A stretch of 64,000 nucleotides of DNA from Rhizobium jaguaris. GTDB taxonomy: Bacteria; Pseudomonadota; Alphaproteobacteria; Rhizobiales; Rhizobiaceae. Shown piece by piece: positions 44,485 to 55,118 of the stretch. The stretch's first letter is position 1, and each line of letters begins with the position of its first letter. The translations under genes were made by a program, and so were the position numbers. The notes beneath the pieces were generated by a model, which saw only the letters and a program-made list of their open reading frames with translations, had not been told where the DNA came from and searched no databases. Location: positions 868,001-932,000 of the forward strand of contig NZ_CP032695.1 of the NCBI RefSeq assembly GCF_003627755.1. Direction: 5' to 3'.

Positions 44485-44781
44485 TCACGATCCTAATCCG
44501 AGTGTCCTACCAAGGGCTCGTTTGAGGTCGTATTGAAGTGAGAGCTCGGTGTTTCGAGTTCTATCGACAATCCGCGCGACAGCTTTGATCTGATCAATAA
44601 CGCCTGGGGTTTCTGAGCCAGCCCACAGATCTTCCTTCCAATTGCGGCTGTGCATGGACCCAACGCGCACTTCATCAATAGAGGGGCGTGGTGAGGATTC
44701 CGCAGTCTTTGAAAGTGCCGCCGGTCCCGATGCATGGAGACCGACGACGGCGTCTGATATCAGCGAATCCAGTTGTTCCAC
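44485..44781 (-). CDS. Possible small hypothetical protein downstream of the binding protein
   Basis: A 98-residue frame starting at GTG 44781 and overlapping the last 22 bases of the substrate-binding gene in another frame. The sequence (SISDAVV-like start, later IDEVRVGSMHSRNWKEDLW and DQIKAVARIVDRTRN) is not low-complexity and could be a real short protein, but no family is recognised and GTG has no clear ribosome site. It may simply be a decayed gene end. Confidence 0.25.
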   Translation of the reverse strand: MEQLDSLISDAVVGLHASGPAALSKTAESSPRPSIDEVRVGSMHSRNWKEDLWAGSETPGVIDQIKAVARIVDRTRNTELSLQYDLKRALGRTLGLGS

Positions 44782-45833
44782 TGTTCCAGCAGTTCGGCGG
44801 CGTGATCGTTAATCCATTTGGCATCCGGAACGACGATGCTATCGCGTATGTCCTCGGCGCTCGGCATTTGATCGCGAACTGCCTGGGGCATTAAGGTGAT
44901 TGCTGCGCTGCTCGGCGGCGTGCAAAGCAAGGCTTCGCAGACCTTGGCCTGACTATCAGGGGAGTCCAACCAGAAGGCGATTAGCTTTAGCGCATTTTCC
45001 CGATTGGGAGCGCCTTTGATAACGGTGAGGCGATCGCCCACCAGAAACGCTGCTTTGTTCGACCAGGCAATCGAACGCCCTTCGGACTTGAGCGCGCTTG
45101 CTCTCGTCAGCCAGATTTGCCCAACGCTGTAGTCCTTCGCGCGAAAGCCCTGAACGCTCTGGTCACCGGTTTTCCACCAGAGAGAGATCGATGGCCGTAG
45201 TTTATCGAGCTTCTTGAATGCGCGGTCGACGTCAAGCGGGAACAGATTCTCGCGCTTGACCCCGTCCGCCAGAAGCGCGGCGGCCATGACCCGCCATGGA
45301 TCATCGAAATTGGGGAATGAACGTCCACCGGGGAATTTGGTCGTATCCCACATGTCAGCCCAGGTCATCGGTTGGCTGCCCTTGAACGCCTGCGGATCGT
45401 AGGTCATCAGAGTGGCCGTCGAAAAAAGCCTGACACCGGCTGGGATACAGGCGTCAGGAACCAGATCCTGGCGATCCTTGTACTGCGCGCAAAAATTGTC
45501 GAGCGGTTCGGAAATGGCGAGATGATCCTGCGAACTGACCTGGATTTCACCGTCTGGATAGAGGTCCCAGGTCACGTTGCCCGTCTTGACCATCGCTGTC
45601 GCCTTGGCACGCATCTCTGCGTTGGTCGCCGCGACGGAGACGACCTGGATACCGGTCTTGGCCGTGAACGGATCGAACCACCATTTCCGCAGTGCCGCAT
45701 CATAGGCGCCACCTGTCGTAGCAATCACGACCTGATCACTGGCAAGTGCTGGGCGAGGCATTCCGCCTCCAATGAAAGCGGCTGCGCCGAGCATAGCAAT
45801 GCCGCTCAGCCGGATGGCTGTCTTTATTATCAT
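44760..45833 (-). CDS. PotF/PotD-like ABC substrate-binding protein
   Basis: A 357-residue periplasmic binding protein with a signal peptide (RLSGIAMLGAAAFIGGGM, cleaved after about Ala31, ALA-SDQ) and the family 1 extracellular binding fold used for putrescine and spermidine (VVIATTGGAYDAALRKWWFD, then DLYPDGEIQVSSQDHLAI). ATG 45833 is chosen because the family and signal peptide begin there; an open frame extends far upstream. It is the third-strand end of an ATPase-permease-permease-binding protein operon on the minus strand. The ligand is unknown; the aminotransferase cassette beyond GntR suggests an amine or amino acid. Confidence 0.9.
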   Translation of the reverse strand: MIIKTAIRLSGIAMLGAAAFIGGGMPRPALASDQVVIATTGGAYDAALRKWWFDPFTAKTGIQVVSVAATNAEMRAKATAMVKTGNVTWDLYPDGEIQVSSQDHLAISEPLDNFCAQYKDRQDLVPDACIPAGVRLFSTATLMTYDPQAFKGSQPMTWADMWDTTKFPGGRSFPNFDDPWRVMAAALLADGVKRENLFPLDVDRAFKKLDKLRPSISLWWKTGDQSVQGFRAKDYSVGQIWLTRASALKSEGRSIAWSNKAAFLVGDRLTVIKGAPNRENALKLIAFWLDSPDSQAKVCEALLCTPPSSAAITLMPQAVRDQMPSAEDIRDSIVVPDAKWINDHAAELLEQWNNWIR

Positions 45834-45883
45834 CAATGTTTCCCTCTTTATGAAATATCCCGCTTGAGGCGGATGTTCAGCCG

Positions 45884-46744
45884 CTATTGCTGCTCCTGGC
45901 GGCCGTTCAGGAGATGGATTGCGCCCATCAAAAGCAGCGAAACGGCGACAACAATGGCCGAAACGGCGGCAATGACAGGCGTCAGGTTGAAGTCTATGTC
46001 TTCGAACATTTTCCGGCTGATCGTCTTTCCGCCGGTGTCGGAGATGAAGAACGATACGGTCGCTTCGTCGAAGGACGTCAGGAAGGCAAAGACGGCGGCG
46101 GTCGCGACGGCCGGGGCGAGGTTGGGCAACGTCACTCCAAAAAACGCCCTTAGCCGGCTCGCTCCGCAACTCAGGGCCGCCAATTCCAGAAGAGGGTCGA
46201 TTCTTTCGAGCGCCGCGGAGACGATGACCACGACGAACGGGACGGCCAATACCGAATGCGCAAGGACGAAGCCAGGCAGGTTGCCGGTCAGTTGTAGCGG
46301 AGAGAAGACGAGGTAGAGCGCTACGCCGAAGACGATCGGCGGCACAATCATCGGTCCGAGGCAGAGCACTTGCAACAACGCTTTGCCCGGCAGCTTGCCG
46401 CGGACGAGAGCGATCGCTGCCATCGTGCCGACGATCGTTGCCACGACGGTAGTTGCGGCGGCGATCTCAAGGCTGAAGATGGTCGCAATCCGCCAGTCGG
46501 GGTCGGATAGATAGGCTTCGAACCAGCGCAGCGTCAGCCCCTGCGGCGGGAAGGCGATATAGGAGGCGTCGTTGAGGGCCAGTGGCACGACCAGCAGCGT
46601 CGGCAGCACGAGAAAGAACAGCACTGTCGCGATCACGAGGTCGGCCGAGCGCCTCACCATCTGCCGCCAGACGGCGCTGCGACGACCGGCGCCAGACGAA
46701 TGCGATGTCAATCGTTGCGCCAGGGGTTGGGATTCAATGGACAC
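45884..46744 (-). CDS. PotC/PotI-like ABC transporter permease
   Basis: A 286-residue inner-membrane permease of the spermidine/putrescine type, with six membrane helices and the EAA loop near ELAALSCGASRLRAFFGVTL. GTG 46744 overlaps the end of the upstream permease by 11 bases, so translation is coupled. It forms the channel with the permease at 46734-47633. Confidence 0.92.
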   Translation of the reverse strand: MSIESQPLAQRLTSHSSGAGRRSAVWRQMVRRSADLVIATVLFFLVLPTLLVVPLALNDASYIAFPPQGLTLRWFEAYLSDPDWRIATIFSLEIAAATTVVATIVGTMAAIALVRGKLPGKALLQVLCLGPMIVPPIVFGVALYLVFSPLQLTGNLPGFVLAHSVLAVPFVVVIVSAALERIDPLLELAALSCGASRLRAFFGVTLPNLAPAVATAAVFAFLTSFDEATVSFFISDTGGKTISRKMFEDIDFNLTPVIAAVSAIVVAVSLLLMGAIHLLNGRQEQQ

Positions 46745-47633
46745 TGTTCAAACCTTTGCTGAAAGAGAGCGCGCGTCGGAAGACCATGACCAGCAGCAAT
46801 GTCGCAACCAGCAGGATCGCCGACAAGGCGGCGGCGAACGGCCAATCCAGCAGGACGATTGTCTGTTGGCCGATCAGGGTCGCCATCATCAGCGCGCCCG
46901 GTCCTCCGACCAGCGCAGGCGTGATGTAAAAACCGATCGCAAGAATGAAGCAGATCACGCAGCCGGCGAAGACGCCCGGCAGGCTGAGCGGAAAGGTCAC
47001 CCGCCGAAAGGCAACCATCCGGCCGGCACCGAGATTGCGCGCCGCCTGCTCATAGGCGCTGGGGATCGAGCGCAGTGCCGAATGGATCGGCAAGATCATG
47101 AAGGGCATCAGCACATGTGTCATGGCGACGATGACGGCGCCCTCGGTGTAGAGCATCTTCAGCGGCGCAGAAATAAGACCCATGTCAAGGAGCAGGTTAT
47201 TGATGATGCCATTGCGCCCCAGCAAGACGATCCACGCATAGGAACGGACAAGCACGGAGGTCCATAGCGGGATGAACAGGCATGCCATGCCGAGCTTTGC
47301 AAGCCGGCCTCGCATGTGCGCGATGGCATATGCGGTGGGATATCCGATTGCAAAACATGCGAAGGTTACGACCGTCGCGATCCGGAATGTTCTGAGAAGA
47401 ACCTGCATATAGAGCGGATTCTCGAAGGCGCGACGATAGGGTTCGAAAGGGGCTGCTTCGGAAAGGCTGATGCCGACGAGTCGCAAAACCGGATAGACGA
47501 AACCTGCCGCCAGCAGGATGAGCAGCGGCAGGATTAGCAGGATCGCCAGCAATGGAGAATAATGGCGGCTCGATCCGGTCAGGAGCCCGCGAAAAGTTGA
47601 CGCTGCAGATTGTCTTGCGAGGGATGAGGTCAT
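46734..47633 (-). CDS. PotB/PotH-like ABC transporter permease
   Basis: A 299-residue permease with six or more membrane helices and an EAA loop (AYEQAARNLGAGRMVAFRRV then TFPLSLPGV). It starts two bases after the end of the ATPase gene and overlaps the next permease. It belongs to the binding-protein-dependent type that is paired as PotB/PotC and PotH/PotI. Confidence 0.92.
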   Translation of the reverse strand: MTSSLARQSAASTFRGLLTGSSRHYSPLLAILLILPLLILLAAGFVYPVLRLVGISLSEAAPFEPYRRAFENPLYMQVLLRTFRIATVVTFACFAIGYPTAYAIAHMRGRLAKLGMACLFIPLWTSVLVRSYAWIVLLGRNGIINNLLLDMGLISAPLKMLYTEGAVIVAMTHVLMPFMILPIHSALRSIPSAYEQAARNLGAGRMVAFRRVTFPLSLPGVFAGCVICFILAIGFYITPALVGGPGALMMATLIGQQTIVLLDWPFAAALSAILLVATLLLVMVFRRALSFSKGLNSVH

Positions 47634-47635
47634 GG

Positions 47636-48742
47636 CTAGGCCTCCAAATTCGCAAACAGACGCAAGGCGTTCGATTCAGCAATGACATCGACCAGATCGC
47701 CCCGGCGGAAACTTGCGGCTACATGCCCAACAGGCATCTGAATCTGGAGCAGGCTGTCGTCACCGCTCTGGGTTCGAACAAAAAAGAGAAAAAACGAACC
47801 CGCAAACACGGCTGCGTCTACGGTACCGGTCAAAATGGCGCCGCGGTCACGGCCGTGCGGCGCAAGTGACAGTCGTTCCGGGCGCACGGCAACGCTGACT
47901 GTCTGCCCGAGCGGGAAGGGGTTAACCTCGTCCTCGGCAGGCGCCGTAGCAACGACATTGCCGCCTCGCAGCCGCACCATGTGATTTCCATTCTCTCGTC
48001 CCAGGTAGCCGGCTTCGAGAAAATTCATGCGGCCAATGAAGTCTCCCACGAAGGCGGAGACGGGTGAGCGATAAAGTTCGAGCGGTGATCCGACCTGGGC
48101 TAGGCGTCCGTTCGCCACCACCGCCACACGATCGGACATGGTCAGCGCCTCCTCCTGGTCATGCGTGACGTAGACGACTGTTGCTCCGAGCCGCTGCTGA
48201 AGGCCTTTGATTTCCAATTGCAGCGTCTCGCGCAGCTTCTTGTCGAGGGCGCCGAGCGGTTCGTCCATCAACAGGACCGGTGGTTCAAAGATGATGGCCC
48301 GGGCGACGGCGACGCGTTGTTGCTGGCCGCCGGATAGCTGGTGCGGATATCGGTCACCGTATCCGTCGAGATGCACCTGTGCCAACGCCGCTTCCACCTT
48401 GCGGCGAACGAGAGTTTCGTTAATGCGGCGCATGCGCAACGGAAAAGCAATGTTTGCCGCCGCCGTCAGATGGGGAAAGAGCGCATAGCGCTGGAACACC
48501 ATGCCGATATTGCGCTTGTTCGGAGCCATGTAAGTGACATCGCGACGGCCGATCATGATCTGGCCGCTGCTGGGGCTTTCGAAGCCGGCGATCATTGTCA
48601 GAAGCGTGGTCTTGCCTGAGCCCGACGGTCCGAGGATCGACAAGAATTCCCCCGCCCGGATTGTGAGTGAGACACCGTTCACGGCAATCGCCTTGTCGTA
48701 TCGCTTTTCTAGTTCTTGCAGCGTAAGCGCTTCGCCAATCAA
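47636..48742 (-). CDS. PotA/PotG-like ABC transporter ATPase
   Basis: A 368-residue ATPase with Walker A GPSGSGKTT at residues 38-46, Q-loop (MVFQRYALFPHL), signature LSGGQQQR, Walker B LLMDEPLGALDK and switch His (VYVTHDQEEAL), followed by a C-terminal TOBE regulatory domain (SVAVRPERLSLAP). The family start falls at TTG 48742 (LIGEALTLQEL), which is preceded by AGGAGAGG; the frame is open upstream to 49018, but that part is not conserved. First gene of the importer operon, divergent from GntR. Confidence 0.93.
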   Translation of the reverse strand: MIGEALTLQELEKRYDKAIAVNGVSLTIRAGEFLSILGPSGSGKTTLLTMIAGFESPSSGQIMIGRRDVTYMAPNKRNIGMVFQRYALFPHLTAAANIAFPLRMRRINETLVRRKVEAALAQVHLDGYGDRYPHQLSGGQQQRVAVARAIIFEPPVLLMDEPLGALDKKLRETLQLEIKGLQQRLGATVVYVTHDQEEALTMSDRVAVVANGRLAQVGSPLELYRSPVSAFVGDFIGRMNFLEAGYLGRENGNHMVRLRGGNVVATAPAEDEVNPFPLGQTVSVAVRPERLSLAPHGRDRGAILTGTVDAAVFAGSFFLFFVRTQSGDDSLLQIQMPVGHVAASFRRGDLVDVIAESNALRLFANLEA

Positions 48743-48927
48743 AGTTCCTCTCCTTTTTGTTTTCGTTTTCAGGCACGCGTGGACATGCGGCTTTACCGGC
48801 TGGCCTGTGCCGGCGATGATCTGTTCGCAGCCCATTTTCGCGAACCGAACTTTCCGAAGACGCGAATTTACAAAGATGGTATGACGTTTGATGTCACATA
48901 ACGTTCGCAACGGCGTCGCTTTTTGTT

Positions 48928-48941
48928 TTTGTTGCAACAAA
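48928..48941. promoter_or_regulatory. GntR operator, site 1 (importer/GntR side)
   Basis: A perfect 14-base palindrome, TTTGTTGCAACAAA, lies in the gap between the divergent importer operon (start 48742) and the GntR gene (start 48977). The same palindrome occurs at 49715-49732. It is a plausible FCD-type GntR site controlling both directions. Confidence 0.65.
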
Positions 48942-48976
48942 TTTGCGAAGTTGTCAAAGGAATTTGGAGGAATTGC

Positions 48977-49681
48977 GTGGAAAAACCACCGGAAGACGAG
49001 GGAAGCTACCAGCATCAACCCAACCGATTGGGCGAAATGGCCTATCGCAATATGAAAGAGCGCCTTATCCGCGGGGCTTTTTCGCCCGGTGACAAGCTCA
49101 CGGTGCGCGCAGTCTCGCAGATGCTGGATGTCAGTTCAACGCCGGCCCGCGATGCCATCAATCGTCTCGTCGTCGATGGAGCGCTGGTTTACTCTGGCCC
49201 GAAGACTGTCATCGTGCCGCATTTAAGGCTGTCGGACCTCGAGGAGATCACGCAGATGCGCTTGGCGCTGGAAGGATTGGCTGCGTCTTTGTCTGCCAAG
49301 GCGGTCAGCGATGCCGCACTCGCAGAATTAGAGATGATTCAAGCGAAAATTGACGCGGCTTTGGATGAGCGCCGTTATTTTGATGCGCTTTGGCACAACA
49401 AGGAGTTTCATTTCACGATCTATCGCCTGACCGGCATGCCCTATCTTTTGCAGACGATCGAGGCTCTTTGGCTGCGAGTTGGGGCATCGTTTAACGGTCT
49501 CTATCCTGTATTTGCAGAGACGCGTTATGGCGCGCGCAATCATCGTTCCGCTATCGAAGCGCTCACAGAAAAAGACGCCTCGGCTGTCCGCGCCGCGATT
49601 GAAAATGATATTCGAGACGGATTCCGGCAAATGAAAAAGGCCTGCACGGAACGCGATCGGCAGAATCTCTGTCGGCGCTGA
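48977..49681 (+). CDS. GntR-family transcriptional regulator (FCD subfamily)
   Basis: A 234-residue regulator: an N-terminal winged helix (MAYRNMKERLIRGAFSPGDK then LTVRAVSQMLDVSSTPARDA) and an all-helical FCD ligand domain with metal-type His residues (LWHNKEFHFTIYRLTG, later NHRSAIEAL). GTG 48977 is chosen because GGAGGAAT lies just before it; longer in-frame starts lack this. It stands between two operons, and the same palindrome occurs on both sides, so it likely represses both the importer and the aminotransferase operon until its ligand is present (inference). Confidence 0.92.
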   Translation: MEKPPEDEGSYQHQPNRLGEMAYRNMKERLIRGAFSPGDKLTVRAVSQMLDVSSTPARDAINRLVVDGALVYSGPKTVIVPHLRLSDLEEITQMRLALEGLAASLSAKAVSDAALAELEMIQAKIDAALDERRYFDALWHNKEFHFTIYRLTGMPYLLQTIEALWLRVGASFNGLYPVFAETRYGARNHRSAIEALTEKDASAVRAAIENDIRDGFRQMKKACTERDRQNLCRR

Positions 49682-49714
49682 AAATTTATGTTGCACTTTC
49701 CATGCCTTCATGTT

Positions 49715-49732
49715 TTTTTGTTGCAACAAAAA
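49715..49732 (+). promoter_or_regulatory. GntR operator, site 2 (metabolic operon)
   Basis: An 18-base perfect palindrome, TTTTTGTTGCAACAAAAA, lies 48 bases before the aminotransferase ATG at 49780 and contains the 14-base core of site 1 unchanged. A partial copy (ATGTTGCA, 49688-49695) lies slightly upstream. Confidence 0.7.
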
Positions 49733-49779
49733 TGTGAACGGGATGCGAACACGCATCTCTCGATTGGAGAGGGCAAGGC

Positions 49780-51141
49780 ATGCTTCATCAGGATTTACTT
49801 TCATTTCGACGGGCGGCGCTCCGCTCGCGCTCGCAATATTTCTTCGAGCGCGGGCAACTCGTGTTTCCCGATGGAACCACTCGTGTCACCGTCGAGCGCG
49901 ACCCCACGCCAACCTATATCGCCCGCGGTGAGGGCGCCTATCTCATTGACGTTGATGGCAATCGCCTACTTGATCTCAACAACAACTTCACCACGCTGAT
50001 CCATGGTCACGGCTATCTGCCGATCGCCGACGCGGTTGCGGATCTTTTGCAGCGAGGGACCTGCTTTTCCAATCCGACCGAGCATGAGCTCGGGTTGGCG
50101 GAACTGCTTGTCCAACGCATTCCGGCAATCGAGCATATTCGCTTCGTCAATAGTGGCACAGAGGCCGTCATGTTTGCGATCAAGGCGGCGCGTGCCTTCA
50201 CCGGCCGGTCGCGCATCGCACGTGTCGAAGGTGCCTATCATGGCGCCTATGATTGGGCCGAGGTAAGCCAAAGCGCTGCGCCGGCCTCCTGGGGACCTGA
50301 TGAGGCGCCGGCGGCGACGACCGCCTACAGGGGCGCACCACAAAGCGTTGCCGAAGAAGTTGATGTGATCCGCTTCAACGACATTGAAGGCCTGGAGCGG
50401 CGATTGGCTGTATCAGGCAGGGACCTTGCGTGCATTCTGATCGATCCGATCCCGAGCAGGGCTGGGTTGATCGCACCGGATCCAGCCTTTGTCGAGGCGA
50501 TTTCCATCCTTTCGCGACAATATGGTTTTCTCGTCGTTGCTGACGAGGTTCTCAACCTGCGGCAAGGGTATCGCGGCGCGTCGGCGCGGTTTGGGCTTGA
50601 GCCCGATCTGGTCGCTGCTGGAAAGATCATTGGCGGCGGTTTTCCGGTGGGCGCTGTCGGCGGCCGCATGGAGGTAATGGAGGTCTTCGCAGGCATCGGC
50701 GCCAAGCCGGCTCTGCCGCAGGGTGGCACCTTCTCGGCCAATCCAGTGTCGATGGTAGCTGGGCGCGTCGCCATGGAAGCGCTGACGCCGGCAAGCTTTG
50801 AGCGACTGGAGGAGATGGGTACACGCGTGCGCAATGGTCTTTGTGCCGCAATCGAGGGCCGTGAGGCGCCTTTTTCTGTGACCGGATCCGCTTCGCTTTT
50901 CCGCATCCACCCCAAGCGCCAGGCGCCCCGCGACTATCGGCAAGCCTTCCCGACGTCGGAGCAGAACAGTTGGATGACCAATATGACGCGCCATTTTCGC
51001 TCCCTTGACATTCTCCTTCCCTTTGGGGCTGCCGCCTGCCTCTCCACAGCAATGACGAATTCCGATCTCGACCTGATCGTCGAAGCCTTCGGCGATTTCC
51101 TTGACACTTATGAAACAGATTTTGATGGGGCAAAGGCATGA
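49780..51141 (+). CDS. Class III PLP aminotransferase (GSA aminotransferase-like)
   Basis: A 453-residue PLP enzyme of the class III (omega or 4-aminobutyrate) fold, closest in style to glutamate-1-semialdehyde aminomutases: FVNSGTEAVMFAIKAARAFT, EGAYHGAYDWAEV, VADEVLNLRQGYRG and the PLP-binding Lys282 (AAGKIIGGGFPVGAVGG). It should move an amino group between an amino acid or amine and a 2-oxo acid. It is the first of three overlapping genes after a GntR palindrome, and no tetrapyrrole genes are near, so haem synthesis is not its likely role. Confidence 0.9.
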   Translation: MLHQDLLSFRRAALRSRSQYFFERGQLVFPDGTTRVTVERDPTPTYIARGEGAYLIDVDGNRLLDLNNNFTTLIHGHGYLPIADAVADLLQRGTCFSNPTEHELGLAELLVQRIPAIEHIRFVNSGTEAVMFAIKAARAFTGRSRIARVEGAYHGAYDWAEVSQSAAPASWGPDEAPAATTAYRGAPQSVAEEVDVIRFNDIEGLERRLAVSGRDLACILIDPIPSRAGLIAPDPAFVEAISILSRQYGFLVVADEVLNLRQGYRGASARFGLEPDLVAAGKIIGGGFPVGAVGGRMEVMEVFAGIGAKPALPQGGTFSANPVSMVAGRVAMEALTPASFERLEEMGTRVRNGLCAAIEGREAPFSVTGSASLFRIHPKRQAPRDYRQAFPTSEQNSWMTNMTRHFRSLDILLPFGAAACLSTAMTNSDLDLIVEAFGDFLDTYETDFDGAKA

Positions 51142-52850
51142 CTGCGGAGACCTTGGAAACCGTCGCTGAGTGCTTAGCTCGCTCGCTGCTGCGCCATGAC
51201 GTCACACATATATTTGCGCAGAGCTTGCCGTCAGCGCTCATTCTCGCCGCCGAATCCGCCGGCATTCGTCAGATTGCCTATCGTCAAGAAAACATGGGCG
51301 GCGCGATGGCTGACGGTTATGCGCGGCGCTCCGGAAAAATCGGTGTGGTGGCAGCTCAGAATGGACCTGCGGCTACTCTGCTGGTGCCCCCGATGGCTGA
51401 GGCGCTGAAGGCAAGCGTTCCGATTGTCGCGCTCGTGCAGGAGGTCGAGCGCGATCAGATGGACCGGAACGCCTTTCAGGAACTCGACCATATCGCCCTC
51501 TTCCAATCCTGCACGAAATGGGTGCGCAGGATCATGGTGCCGGAACGGATCGAGGACTATATCGATGCCGCCTTCACCGCAGCCGCCTCCGGTCGGCCCG
51601 GACCCGTGGCATTGCTGCTACCCGCCGATTTGTTGCGTTCAGAGCTTGCCGTCAGGTCGCCAGCGCGGTCTCTCAATCTTGGGCATTGGCCCCTTGATCG
51701 CTCGTGCCCCGATCGCACGACGCTGCAAACGGCCGCAAATATGATTTCGCACGCCAGAAATCCGGTAGTGATCGCAGGCGGTGGCGTCCTCGGTAGTCAT
51801 GCTTGCGATGAACTGGCTGTTTTGCAGGAGATGGCAGCGCTTCCTGTCTTGACCACCAATATGGGCAAGGGCGCCGTCGACGAACACCATTCCCTTTCAG
51901 CGGGGGTCTTGGGATCGCTTGTTGGTCCGCGCTCACTCGGACGCCATACCGCCGCATTGGTCAATGGTGCCGATCTTGTCATCCTGATCGGAACGCGTAC
52001 CAACCAGAACGGCACAGATAGCTGGCGACAAATTTCTGCTGGCACGCAGGTAATCCATATCGATGTCGACCCTCAGGAAATCGGCCGCAATTATCAAGCT
52101 CTGCGTTTGGTCGGTGATGCCCGAGAGACGCTGCGAGAGCTTATTCATGCGTTGAAGGAATGCGACCTGTCTCAACGCTGGAATCATCGAGCCGCTGTCG
52201 TTGCCCGTATTGCCGAATGCTGGCGGCGGTTTGAGGAGGACCGACATCAGTTTGTTCACGCCACGTCATCATCAATTCGCCCCGAACGCATCATGGCGGA
52301 ATTACAGGCGTCATTGACATCGCAAACCACCATTGTTGCGGACGCGAGCTATTCATCAATGTGGGTCGTTGGTCAGTTGCGCTCGCTTGCCCCCGGAATG
52401 CGGTTTCTTACGCCACGTGGACTTGCGGGACTGGGATGGGGGCTGCCGCTTGCGCTGGGCGCAAAGGCTGCACTGCCGGATCAGCCTGTCGTTGCCCTTG
52501 TTGGTGACGGTGGGTTCGCGCATAGCTGGGCGGAAATTGAAACAATGGTGCGGTGCAATCTGCCGATCACCATCATCCTTCTCAATAACGGCATCTTAGG
52601 CTTCCAGCGGGATGCGGAGACCGTAAAGTTCGGCCGTTTCACATCGGCTTGCCATTTTGCGCCCGTCGATCATGTGCAAATCGCTCAAGCCTGCGGATGC
52701 CCAGCAGTCCGCGTCGAGGATCCGCGCGAGCTTAAAGCCCATTTGCAGGTTGGATTGGCAGGGAAGGTACCACTGCTCATCGAGGTTATGACAGACCCAC
52801 AGGCCCACCCGGCTTTATCTCTGTTTGCCGGTATGGACGAGGCGGCATGA
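51138..52850 (+). CDS. Thiamine diphosphate-dependent enzyme (acetolactate synthase-like)
   Basis: A 570-residue three-domain TPP enzyme: an N-terminal pyrimidine-binding domain with the cofactor-activating Glu51 (AYRQENMGGAMADGYARRSG), a central Rossmann-like domain (VIAGGGVLGSHACDELAVLQ, then TNMGKGAVDEHHSLSAGVLG) and a C-terminal pyrophosphate-binding domain with GDG at 456-458 (VALVGDGGFAHSWAEIE) and IILLNNGILGFQ. It would decarboxylate or ligate a 2-oxo acid. No acetolactate synthase small subunit is present, so it is probably not for branched-chain amino acids. It overlaps its neighbours on both sides by four bases. Confidence 0.9.
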   Translation: MTAETLETVAECLARSLLRHDVTHIFAQSLPSALILAAESAGIRQIAYRQENMGGAMADGYARRSGKIGVVAAQNGPAATLLVPPMAEALKASVPIVALVQEVERDQMDRNAFQELDHIALFQSCTKWVRRIMVPERIEDYIDAAFTAAASGRPGPVALLLPADLLRSELAVRSPARSLNLGHWPLDRSCPDRTTLQTAANMISHARNPVVIAGGGVLGSHACDELAVLQEMAALPVLTTNMGKGAVDEHHSLSAGVLGSLVGPRSLGRHTAALVNGADLVILIGTRTNQNGTDSWRQISAGTQVIHIDVDPQEIGRNYQALRLVGDARETLRELIHALKECDLSQRWNHRAAVVARIAECWRRFEEDRHQFVHATSSSIRPERIMAELQASLTSQTTIVADASYSSMWVVGQLRSLAPGMRFLTPRGLAGLGWGLPLALGAKAALPDQPVVALVGDGGFAHSWAEIETMVRCNLPITIILLNNGILGFQRDAETVKFGRFTSACHFAPVDHVQIAQACGCPAVRVEDPRELKAHLQVGLAGKVPLLIEVMTDPQAHPALSLFAGMDEAA

Positions 52851-53620
52851 TGTCGGAGCCGTCTCGCATCGCGGTAGTGACGGGAGGAACAAGCGGCATT
52901 GGACTGGCGACGGCGCGAAAACTGCTGACGGCGGGGCATCGTGTGGCTGTCTTCAGTCATCGCGCCGACGTGGTCGCAGAGGCAAGCGCGTCGCTTTCTG
53001 CCGAATTCGACCCCAGTCAGGTTGTGGCCCGTGTCGTCGATCTGGCGAAGCCGGCCGCGATCACTCATTTCTTCGATGAACTCCGGTCCATCTGGGGCAT
53101 TGCGGATATTCTGGTCTGCAACGCCGGAATATCGCCGAAAGGGCCAAATGGCTCGCGACGGTTCGAAGATGTGGGGTTGGATGAGTGGAACGAAGTGCTG
53201 GCGGTGAACTTGACCGGCGCGATGTTGTGCTGCCAGGCGGTGGTCGGTGGTATGCGACAAACAGGTTTCGGACGCATCGTTCTGGTCGGATCGCTTGCGG
53301 GGCGTACGCGTCCTCATGTGGCTGGGCCAGCATACACTGCCAGCAAGGCGGGGCTGGCAGGTCTGATGCGTACCCTTGTGGGACCATTTAGTCCTTTTGG
53401 GATCACCGTCAATCTGGTGGCGCCCGGCAGAATTTCGACACCTTTGATCGGAGATCCTCATACCCCGACAAATCGAGAAGCCGTCGGGCGCATCCCGGCC
53501 GCCCGGCTTGGAACGCCGGAGGAGGTCGCTGCCGTCATCGCATTTTTGGCGTCAATGGATGCCGGTTTCGTTAACGGGGCAATCATCGATGTCAATGGTG
53601 GTGAATACGCGCCTGCCTAG
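52847..53620 (+). CDS. Short-chain dehydrogenase/reductase of the GntR cassette
   Basis: A 257-residue classical SDR: cofactor motif TGGTSGIG at residues 12-19, CNAG, catalytic Ser in VLVGSLAGR, and Tyr163/Lys167 in YTASK. The C-terminus (GAIIDVNGGEYAPA) is typical of the FabG-like group. Its start ATG 52847 overlaps the TPP enzyme stop. Together the three enzymes could turn an amine or amino acid into a 2-oxo acid, then an aldehyde or hydroxyketone, and then an alcohol or acid. That order is inference. Confidence 0.93.
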   Translation: MMSEPSRIAVVTGGTSGIGLATARKLLTAGHRVAVFSHRADVVAEASASLSAEFDPSQVVARVVDLAKPAAITHFFDELRSIWGIADILVCNAGISPKGPNGSRRFEDVGLDEWNEVLAVNLTGAMLCCQAVVGGMRQTGFGRIVLVGSLAGRTRPHVAGPAYTASKAGLAGLMRTLVGPFSPFGITVNLVAPGRISTPLIGDPHTPTNREAVGRIPAARLGTPEEVAAVIAFLASMDAGFVNGAIIDVNGGEYAPA

Positions 53621-53665
53621 GGCGACTGCGCGTCCGGCGCGTTCAGCCGCAAGAACTCCGAAGGG

Positions 53666-54409
53666 ATGAGCGACATGAATTTGGCTGAGTGCAACAGGGT
53701 CCTCATTTGGACTGCGGATGCAGAGCTGTTCCTGCCCTTCAGCTATATTCTGAAGATGGAGGGTTTTATGCCGTTACTCGCCTGTAGCGCCAACGACGTG
53801 CTGGAATCATGTGCGAACGGTGTGACCCATGCCATTCTCCTGGATTGCGCCGATGAAACCCAAGATGCTGTTTTCCTCTGTCGCGAGGTAAGACGATCTG
53901 CTCGCGGTAACGAAGTGCGTTTGATTGCTCTGCTCCGAGACGGAGGGCAGCTGATTCACCTCGCCTTGCTACGAGCCGGTGTCGATGACTGCCTCGTCAG
54001 ACCGCTTTCACCAGAGAAATTGCTGACGTCGCTCAGACAGGCAAAACCGGGGAAAGTCAAAATGTCAGATGTGGAAATGACCACAATACCAGCAAGCTTT
54101 GGATTCGAGATCGATACCGAGGGTCGTCGTGTTCAGTGCAACGGTCAGAATGTCGTTCTATCGCCCATCGAGATCAAGATCCTATCCCACTTGGTCGGGA
54201 GAGCGGGGCAACTTTGCAGCCGCTCCGAATTGATCGCATCGGCCTGGCCGCCTACCGCCGAAGTCACGCCGCGGACTGTGGATGTTCACATTGGCCGCTT
54301 GCGCAGGGCGCTGGCGGAGCGGCTTGGATACGGTGACGCCATCCGCACCGTCCATGCCGCTGGCTATGTATTAGAACCAAGGGGCTTGCGAAAGGCACCG
54401 CGTCTTTGA
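53666..54409 (+). CDS. OmpR/PhoB-type response regulator with degenerate receiver
   Basis: A 247-residue protein: an N-terminal receiver-like domain and a C-terminal OmpR/PhoB winged helix (VVLSPIEIKILSHLVGRAGQ, later TVDVHIGRLRRALAERLGYG then IRTVHAAGYVLEP). The phosphoacceptor Asp60 is present (AILLDCADE). The acid pair that binds metal reads Thr-Ala (VLIWTAD), the switch Thr/Ser is Leu90 (LIALL), and the Lys of the KP motif is Arg112 (VRPLS). It thus probably does not work by normal phosphorylation. No histidine kinase is adjacent. It follows the SDR by 45 bases on the same strand. Confidence 0.88.
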   Translation: MSDMNLAECNRVLIWTADAELFLPFSYILKMEGFMPLLACSANDVLESCANGVTHAILLDCADETQDAVFLCREVRRSARGNEVRLIALLRDGGQLIHLALLRAGVDDCLVRPLSPEKLLTSLRQAKPGKVKMSDVEMTTIPASFGFEIDTEGRRVQCNGQNVVLSPIEIKILSHLVGRAGQLCSRSELIASAWPPTAEVTPRTVDVHIGRLRRALAERLGYGDAIRTVHAAGYVLEPRGLRKAPRL

Positions 54410-54557
54410 CGGGCATGTCGTCACCGACATGAATTCCGTCATCACAATCGTCAGGATAGTAGCCGTCGAGGTCGACGGTCATGCTCCTGCCCTGATAGGT
54501 CACGACGAACGGGCGCCTGTCACGGTCCAGCGCCGGCGTCGATCCCGCGGGCGTCAT
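54405..54557 (-). pseudogene. MqsA-like antitoxin N-terminal fragment
   Basis: A short frame starting at ATG 54557, which overlaps the BrnA stop. It reads DRDRRPFVVTYQGRSMTVDL then GYYPDDCDDGIHVGDDM. This resembles the start of MqsA-type antitoxins of the YgiT group (strand-rich, YPxxDGxGxHVG). It loses similarity where it meets the end of the response regulator gene, so the DNA-binding part is missing. Confidence 0.35.
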
Positions 54558-54832
54558 CGTTGTGGACCCGAAGCGTCGATCTTTTCCGAGAGCCAGATCT
54601 TGATGAGCGACTGATAGGGCACGTCGCGCTTGCCCGCCGCGACCTTGATCCGCTCAAGCAGCGCGTTCGGCAGCCGCAGCGAGATCGATGTGGAGGATGG
54701 TTTCAGGTTCGGAAGACGCACACGCTCCGCCTTGCTCCAGTCGATATGATCGTCGGAATCCGGGCTCTCCCAGAAGGCGCGTTCTTCCGCTTCCGTCTTG
54801 AACTCCGGTACTGGCTTAAGCGTCTTGCTCAT
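54554..54832 (-). CDS. brnA: BrnA-type antitoxin
   Basis: A 92-residue ribbon-helix-helix antitoxin of the BrnA family: DDHIDWSKAERVRLPNLKPS, then STSISLRLPNALLERIKVAA and VPYQSLIKIWLSEKI. The gene order toxin-antitoxin (BrnT first) is characteristic. It overlaps the BrnT gene by 17 bases. BrnA binds BrnT and represses the operon. Confidence 0.92.
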   Translation of the reverse strand: MSKTLKPVPEFKTEAEERAFWESPDSDDHIDWSKAERVRLPNLKPSSTSISLRLPNALLERIKVAAGKRDVPYQSLIKIWLSEKIDASGPQR

Positions 54833-55118
54833 AATAGCTCCGCTCCTTGCGGCTCATGTCCCGGGCCGAGATCACCCGTATCTTCGTCTCGTTTTGCCGA
54901 AGCGTGAAAGTGATATGCAGCAGCCTCCCATCGTCGGTGCGCCCGAGAGGGTGGATGCGTCGCTCCTCAGCGCTGTGCCTTGCGTCGGGAACCATTAGCA
55001 GTGGTTCGTTGAAAAACACCTGCTCCGCTTCGGCCTGGCTGACGTCATGCTTCTCGACACTCTTGCGGGCATTTTCCGCGTCCCAGTCGAAGCCGGTGAT
55101 CCGTTCCCAATCAATCAT
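54816..55118 (-). CDS. brnT: BrnT-type ribonuclease toxin
   Basis: A 100-residue RelE-fold toxin: DWERITGFDWDAENARKSVE (KHDVSQAEAEQVFFNEP follows), then IHPLGRTDDGRLLHITFTLR and RVISARDMSRKERSYY. BrnT toxins cleave mRNA and block translation. ATG 55118 is just after a perfect palindrome that is the probable BrnTA operator. Confidence 0.92.
   Translation of the reverse strand: MIDWERITGFDWDAENARKSVEKHDVSQAEAEQVFFNEPLLMVPDARHSAEERRIHPLGRTDDGRLLHITFTLRQNETKIRVISARDMSRKERSYYEQDA

Follow-up and report, generated by a model that had tools for sequence, protein, structure and literature searches.

What does a divergent gene cluster built around a GntR-type regulator in Rhizobium jaguaris import, and what is made of the imported compound? 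The cluster lies in a stretch of 64,000 nucleotides (C2:868001-932000 of the 8.03-Mb home genome, i.e. contig NZ_CP032695.1), which we call the window. Here, a Pot-type ATP-binding cassette (ABC) importer operon on the minus strand is divergent from plus-strand genes for the regulator (gntR), a class III aminotransferase (AT3), a thiamine diphosphate (ThDP) enzyme, a short-chain dehydrogenase/reductase (SDR) and a response regulator (RR1), as seen from open reading frames (ORFs) and Pfam matches. These genes represent the att/atr locus of agrobacteria and rhizobia, and we consider it probable, if by no means secure, that they form a GntR-controlled uptake-and-conversion regulon. The strongest of our new claims are a predicted operator and the link of this locus to an alpha-oxoamine synthase (AOS). 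The elements of the window are:

44760..45833, minus strand: solute-binding protein (SBP), AttC orthologue; Pfam SBP_bac_8; top PDB match 5l9s (471 bits)
45884..46744, minus strand: ABC permease, PotC/PotI-like, AttB position; BPD_transp_1, conserved order
46734..47633, minus strand: ABC permease, PotB/PotH-like, AttA2 position; BPD_transp_1, conserved order
47636..48742, minus strand: ABC ATPase, AttA1 position; ABC_tran and TOBE_2
48928..48941, no strand assigned: predicted operator A in the ATPase/gntR gap; TTTGTTGCAACAAA exact, TTGWTGCAWCAA conserved in equivalent regions
48977..49681, plus strand: GntR/FCD regulator; GntR and FCD Pfam domains over cut-off
49717..49730, no strand assigned: predicted operator B in the gntR/aminotransferase gap; TTTGTTGCAACAAA exact, TTGWTGCAWCAA conserved in equivalent regions
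49780..51141, plus strand: AT3, AtrB position; Aminotran_3; top PDB match 6k8h
51138..52850, plus strand: ThDP enzyme of the NF004772/PRK06112 subfamily (936.8 bits vs cut-off 673); three TPP_enzyme domains
52847..53620, plus strand: SDR dehydrogenase/reductase; adh_short_C2
53666..54409, plus strand: OmpR-type response regulator RR1 with an atypical receiver; Trans_reg_C

An earlier note on this DNA had described the same gene content, overlapping genes and a palindrome flanking gntR, and these observations are confirmed: ORFs and Pfam agree on the genes, AT3 and the ThDP gene share 4 bp (51138-51141), as do the ThDP and SDR genes (52847-52850), and TTTGTTGCAACAAA is present in exact form at 48928 and 49717. 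RR1 starts 45 bp past the SDR stop codon; the Pfam scan detected only Trans_reg_C in this protein and no Response_reg domain. The regulator scores 48.1 vs 27 bits for the GntR domain and 76.1 vs 24.3 bits for the FCD domain (Pfam cut-offs). We prefer GTG 48977 over TTG 48923 as its start codon, since the latter would enclose the palindrome within the gene.

Is this module a new one? The earlier note saw in it the best candidate for an undescribed one, but it is already known as the att/atr region of plasmid pAtC58. Judged by sequence, the window locus is the att/atr locus known from Agrobacterium and rhizobia and falls into the AttC orthologue group, because three likenesses coincide. The top solved relative of the SBP is 5l9s (next match 146 bits), which carries 'mannopine' in its PDB name and whose compared N-terminal stretch is identical, letter for letter, to the SBP of the C58 att locus; the gene order is that of pAtC58 and pSymA; and the NGR234 relative of AT3 bears the name AtrB. 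We take the C58 SBP gene to be attC, the pAtC58 record itself being without that name. The att gene naming follows the att gene table as excerpted from PMC4051167.

In Agrobacterium fabrum C58, pAtC58 shows the same order and strands (response regulator, SDR, ThDP enzyme, aminotransferase, GntR / ATPase, permease, permease, SBP), the ThDP gene being labelled 'acetolactate synthase' and the aminotransferase gene 'aspartate aminotransferase' in the record. Its operator between gntR and the aminotransferase gene is exact, and operator A matches at 10/12 positions. A pair of AOS and response regulator genes is likewise present, nearby in C58, whereas it lies ~225 kb off in the window's genome. Beyond attC, C58 carries blcR, genes for a succinate-semialdehyde dehydrogenase (SSADH) and an alcohol dehydrogenase, and attM. 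Sinorhizobium meliloti 1021 has on pSymA the eight genes in the same order (57-72% identity), then a response regulator-AOS pair, with exact operators in both gaps; in contrast, the response regulator encoded behind its SDR shares no more than 36% identity with RR1.

For a broader comparison, we used 82 loci, namely the best 80 of 140 relatives of the ThDP enzyme plus pSymA and pAtC58. Among these, the closest named ThDP relatives (86-88% protein identity) all belong to Rhizobium, the species including R. leucaenae, R. tropici and R. rhizogenes. All eight core genes were above the identity limits in 64 of the 82 loci, part of the losses being due to contig ends; the gene order, whose absence from related strains would according to the earlier note have spoken against a module, is thus kept in relatives. 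Individually, the ThDP gene was present in 82 loci, AT3 in 80, gntR in 77, SDR in 76, the ATPase and each permease in 74 and the SBP in 66. Loci outside the orthologue group mostly keep the ThDP gene alone. Its neighbours there are different ones, for instance a gene for a 2-oxo-tetronate isomerase in L123 and one for a DhaK-like kinase subunit in L136, which suggests several substrates for this ThDP family. These loci, except L121, were excluded from pathway inference.

How, then, are the two divergent operons switched? Allowing up to two mismatches, TTTGTTGCAACAAA has two matches in the 64 kb, both of them exact, against a chance mean of 0.08, and none of 100 shuffles gave two. The 12-position pattern TTGWTGCAWCAA was counted in 86 sequences (the 82 loci, the window, L121, L138 and L139), of which 81 ATPase-gntR (or upstream-of-gntR) gaps and 79 gntR-AT3 gaps were testable; stretches from L119, L121 and L139, where gntR is on the minus strand, were turned round. 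The pattern is exact in 58/81 of the former and 59/79 of the latter gaps, and at least 10 of the 12 positions agree in 79/81 and 79/79, respectively. Both gaps carry it in exact form in 42 of 79 loci, and with at least 10/12 positions in 78 of 79. In 79 sequences, exact copies number 119 in 36.6 kb of gaps vs 8 in the 1,624 kb elsewhere, a ~660-fold difference in density, while the reversed pattern, our control, occurs once in all. Positions 4 and 9 of TTGWTGCAWCAA alternate symmetrically between A and T, which, together with the conservation on both sides of gntR, leads us to predict this pattern as an operator. Scanning the surroundings of the operators for sigma-70 promoters was uninformative (no hits, 0.7 expected).

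Co-regulation of the uptake and conversion genes thus appears well supported by this comparative evidence. The earlier note's proposal that uptake and conversion of one compound are switched together stood in its core, as one operator family occupies both gaps, yet it was incomplete, since a third arm had been missed. The whole home genome holds three exact motif sites, and the third (C2:691838), ~225 kb from the att genes, is located 75 bp before the first of two further genes:

L143:9049-9762, minus strand: RR2, a second OmpR-type regulator, downstream of the third exact motif
L143:7542-8795, following RR2: AOS; NF005697, 526 bits vs cut-off 342

In many relatives, RR2-AOS is found within 10 kb of the att genes. 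Seven of the eight exact motifs outside the gntR gaps are upstream of RR2 (L040 twice, L041, L042, L043, L044 and L093); the eighth, in L045, falls close to the end of its locus, where RR2 is out of reach. Our set of RR2-AOS promoters kept 48 of 49 stretches (L068, whose upstream stretch was wrong, was dropped; L114, without sequence, is included), six of which were taken upstream of AOS itself where the response regulator was not found. At least 10/12 positions agree in 30 of these 48 and at least 11/12 in 15, vs 64 and 23, respectively, of 1177 control stretches that precede other predicted ORFs of these loci.

The partnership is also seen in gene content. Among 37 genomes of the genus, AOS (E<=1e-100) was detected in 10/10 with an orthologue of the ThDP enzyme and in 0/27 without. 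Among 247 genomes of the family, it was detected (E<=1e-130) in seven of the eight with the ThDP enzyme (E<=1e-205) and in none of the 239 others; the remaining genome, G914, has the ThDP gene alone. In six of the seven, AOS lies within ~11 kb of the ThDP gene on the same contig, the seventh being the home genome. The SBP is less constant than AOS (E<=1e-90 in 9/10 genus genomes); in G001, for example, a distant SBP (37.6%) is encoded beside a gene for an M81 (MlrC-like) hydrolase, and AOS adjoins a second gntR and a second SDR gene. The subfamily of AOS itself, NF005697, is unnamed, and assignment as an alpha-hydroxyketone autoinducer synthase (CqsA/LqsA) was rejected (NF005526, 74.8 bits vs cut-off 428). 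As a side observation, a gene whose product combines nucleotidyltransferase and HEPN domains is repeatedly found near RR2-AOS (L040:1948-2844 and 27 further loci), either between RR2-AOS and the att genes (L040, L118) or beyond AOS (L119).

A near-constant AOS partner that follows RR2 and carries the shared operator raises the possibility of biosynthesis or signalling. An imported precursor would end up as a small ketone or aminoketone: C-C bonds would be built by AOS and the ThDP enzyme, the aminotransferase and the SDR would trim, and two atypical response regulators would act on the product. One run of genes (L147:3825-8466) is in line with this, as it combines AOS with a GNAT gene and a second gene for a class III aminotransferase; it ends beside an M81 gene that closes the importer operon on the opposite strand. 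Furthermore, the module-linked response regulators keep the phospho-acceptor Asp in 79 of 89 members, but have Arg at the position of the usual receiver Lys in 79/89 and Lys in 0/89, suggesting atypical signalling; we presume these positions to correspond to those of PhoB. On the other hand, AOS is not of the quorum-sensing type, no sensor kinase was seen among the genes described (a systematic search was not made), and the dedicated importer as well as the variants with lactamase-, SSADH- and glutamate dehydrogenase-like genes (see below) point to catabolism. We therefore hold this alternative to be unlikely, though not negligible. Its most elaborate form, in which the att regulon is a metabolite-to-signal converter, must be called decidedly unlikely: a plant- or opine-like nitrogen-containing acid would be imported, remodelled by the aminotransferase, a ThDP carboligase and the SDR, and joined by AOS into a new product that is read by the two Lys-to-Arg response regulators without a sensor kinase. 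If true, it would account for att mutants having been scored in assays of plant interaction even though the genes encode no adhesin.

Which compound does the uptake-and-conversion regulon import? In an alignment to 4eq7, which we take to be the GABA protein Atu4243, residues W241, R244 and D267 of the SBP match the spacing of W202, R205 and D228 in the GABA site. According to passages of PMC12999171, these three residues and W9 belong to the GABA site of iGABASnFR2, in which D228 bonds the GABA amine; R205 would then hold the carboxylate. R244 is found in 66/66 and D267 in 58/66 SBP relatives. Other SBP_bac_8 proteins bind GABA or 5-aminovalerate (excerpts of PMC11113362). Our SBP shares the family and the W-x-x-R and D positions with these GABA/5-aminovalerate proteins (Atu4243; PA0602/AgtB), but is distant from them (127.9 bits for 4eq7 vs 471 for 5l9s), and the equivalent of W9 is a Thr, so that GABA itself is not implied as the ligand. 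With moderate confidence, these residues point to a carboxylate-bearing amine as the substrate class.

In an enlarged set of 72 SBPs, which includes that of the window and has L138 and L139 coded as M81-positive, R244 shows no exception, whereas 11 members have lost D267. Ten of these losses are among the 23 SBPs from M81 loci vs one among the 49 others (D267 being kept in 13 and 48, respectively), and the lone exception, L117, has an amidohydrolase. Loss of D267 beside a hydrolase would fit import of an amine-blocked form, with the limits that the loci are related and that the Asp is retained by the majority of SBPs from M81 loci.

The same proteins bear on uptake and use of putrescine or other polyamines, a role suggested by gene naming and by transposon sequencing (TnSeq) of S. 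meliloti in symbiosis. The att-like importer of pSymA is presumably SMa0951-3, the pSymA record used being unannotated. Passages of PMC7268258 name SMa0951-3 potABCD3 and count them among the transport genes essential in symbiosis. Also, the transporter families are of the Pot type, and the ATPase is just under the cut-off of TIGR01187 (352.8 vs 355.6 bits). The polyamine-specific NCBIfam cut-offs are, however, missed (PotD 47.5 vs 582, PotA 339 vs 482, PotB 191 vs 348, PotC 123.3 vs 326), as are the PotH, PotI and PotG equivalog cut-offs, and an invariant Arg at the carboxylate position of the SBP is ill-suited to a diamine. A polyamine role is thus quite improbable.

Uptake of mannopine or another opine, or the historical role in plant attachment, would agree with the PDB name of 5l9s. 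However, a structural study of 2016 reportedly concluded that AttC does not bind mannopine. The attC and attG mutants were reported as attachment-negative (Matthysse 2008, as cited in the part of PMC4051167 at hand), but a title in the reference list of the same paper terms the attC/attG mutations dominant negative, and passages of the review PMC4231840 ascribe attachment largely to chromosomal genes and describe this role as refuted for blcABC. On an attachment or virulence phenotype, published reports conflict. We regard this explanation as highly improbable.

Coming back to the uptake-and-conversion regulon, what may its enzymes do? The closest solved relative of AT3 is 6k8h (393.7 bits), a transaminase of Sphaerobacter thermophilus that was assayed with beta- and gamma-amino acids and whose R36 has been proposed to bind the substrate carboxyl group (PMC10589169). 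This carboxylate Arg is conserved in AT3 (R35, present in 81/81 relatives). AT3 was rejected as a HemL-type glutamate-1-semialdehyde aminomutase (TIGR00713, 294.3 vs 527.3 bits). In the ThDP enzyme, the catalytic-type Glu (E51) is present in 82/82 relatives; glyoxylate carboligase is not known to have this Glu.

It is this enzyme whose automatic annotation would imply acetolactate and branched-chain amino acid metabolism, and NF004772, named 'acetolactate synthase catalytic subunit', is indeed exceeded with the score given above. The remaining acetolactate synthase models listed are nevertheless below cut-off (e.g. TIGR00118, 341.8 vs 538.35), and the alignment places two family-wide conserved residues, N291 (82/82) and A493 (at least 97%), at the positions of R377 and W574 of acetohydroxyacid synthase, residues which we take, in plant numbering, to shape the acceptor site. 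An acetolactate role is scarcely credible for this locus; it shares the verdict unlikely with the mannopine and putrescine roles.

Variant loci give further hints at the pathway. An SSADH-type dehydrogenase above the TIGR01780 cut-off replaces SDR after the ThDP gene in L082 and L100, follows SDR in L078 and is also present in L111. A HyuAB pair closest to caprolactamase was identified in L078, L083, L096, L100, L111 and L113, and a glutamate dehydrogenase-like gene, below equivalog cut-offs, in L078 and L096. The 87 loci examined for extra genes contain an M81 hydrolase gene in 25, an amidohydrolase gene in 6 and a GNAT gene in 10 cases. Taken together, these genes would be in keeping with a pathway in which a carboxylated amine is released and transaminated, glutamate being the amino carrier. 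Caprolactam degradation proceeds via caprolactamase, an aminotransferase and a semialdehyde dehydrogenase, and variant loci likewise pair HyuAB (closest to CapAB) with a class III aminotransferase and SSADH. There are differences, though: HyuAB is below the CapA/CapB cut-offs and absent among the module's genes in the window, and a ThDP enzyme has, to our knowledge, no part in the known caprolactam route. HyuAB as a true caprolactamase was rejected in L078 (NF050156/NF050157, 565.8 and 348.8 vs 1000 bits), the pair of L096 being also below cut-off.

In the explanation we favour, an AttA1A2BC-type importer would take up a carboxylate compound, usually with a free amine, such as a beta- or omega-amino acid or a close relative, as the SBP residues suggest. 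Some lineages may instead import an N-blocked or cyclic compound to be opened by the M81 hydrolase, the caprolactamase-like HyuAB or the amidohydrolase found in the neighbourhood. AT3, judging by the characterised transaminase closest to it and by the conserved Arg for the carboxylate, would yield an oxo-acid or semialdehyde, which the ThDP enzyme and SDR (SSADH-type in some loci) may process by decarboxylation or carboligation plus a redox step. GntR is predicted to bind TTGWTGCAWCAA at the importer, enzyme and RR2-AOS operons, in keeping with the computed operator conservation, and probably acts as a repressor, its release being brought about by the substrate or an intermediate.

Several points weigh against this explanation. 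The combination of a ThDP carboligase and AOS looks equally biosynthetic and catabolic, and the lactamase and SSADH variants pointing to catabolism are few, neither being among the genes described in the window. The SBP is without the GABA-site Trp (T at position 40 in 61/66), and the ATPase misses the potA subfamily TIGR01187 only narrowly. As to the switch, the exact motif is absent on one side in a minority of loci (23/81 for gap A, 20/79 for gap B). The motif is also present in genus genomes without the module (20 matches in 27 genomes vs 24 in 10 with it, i.e. 0.74 vs 2.4 per genome), so single genome matches need caution. The related loci are non-independent samples, hence the counts are not independent either, and the control ORFs were called mechanically. 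Finally, expression changes seen by RNA sequencing in C58 may be effects of VtlR or small RNAs rather than of GntR.

These changes belong to the prior genetics of the att/atr locus, which comprises attachment, regulation by VtlR and VrsA and, probably, symbiosis TnSeq. Passages of PMC7486931 report that the C58 att operon atu5126-5130 was lowered in vrsA and vtlR mutants, that atu5116, 5118, 5119, 5121, atrA and atrB were differentially expressed in the vtlR mutant while VtlR did not bind their promoters, and that attC was altered in abcR1. With the caveat just given, we count the changes in the vtlR mutant in favour of the regulon. Table 2 of PMC7003649, seen as an excerpt, lists the regulator Atu5119, which is of the PhoB type and was raised in a pdhS2 mutant. 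The atu numbers would map onto the genes of the pAtC58 locus. Within the open-licence PMC literature searched, we found neither a biochemical role of the att genes nor a function of AT3, the ThDP enzyme or SDR, and the literature passages on the locus do not mention the AOS arm.

The att genes have long been labelled as attachment genes, and the presumed importer SMa0951-3 is counted among the symbiosis-required transport genes of S. meliloti. An importer and conversion enzymes under a GntR switch represent a known design, but the chemistry here is unusual. The predicted operator, the three-operon regulon and the narrow ligand class make the function of the att genes testable.

Some minor features of the loci may be added. 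In the window, a BrnT-type toxin and a CopG-type antitoxin are encoded on the minus strand (54557-55118), immediately downstream of the module. The aminotransferase gene of L100 (L100:7205-8559) is split into two ORFs, possibly reflecting a frameshift or an assembly error. In the close relatives L038 and L040-L044, conserved genes located further downstream, at 13-21 kb, resemble a VirB-type secretion or conjugation cluster, as judged by eye from translations.

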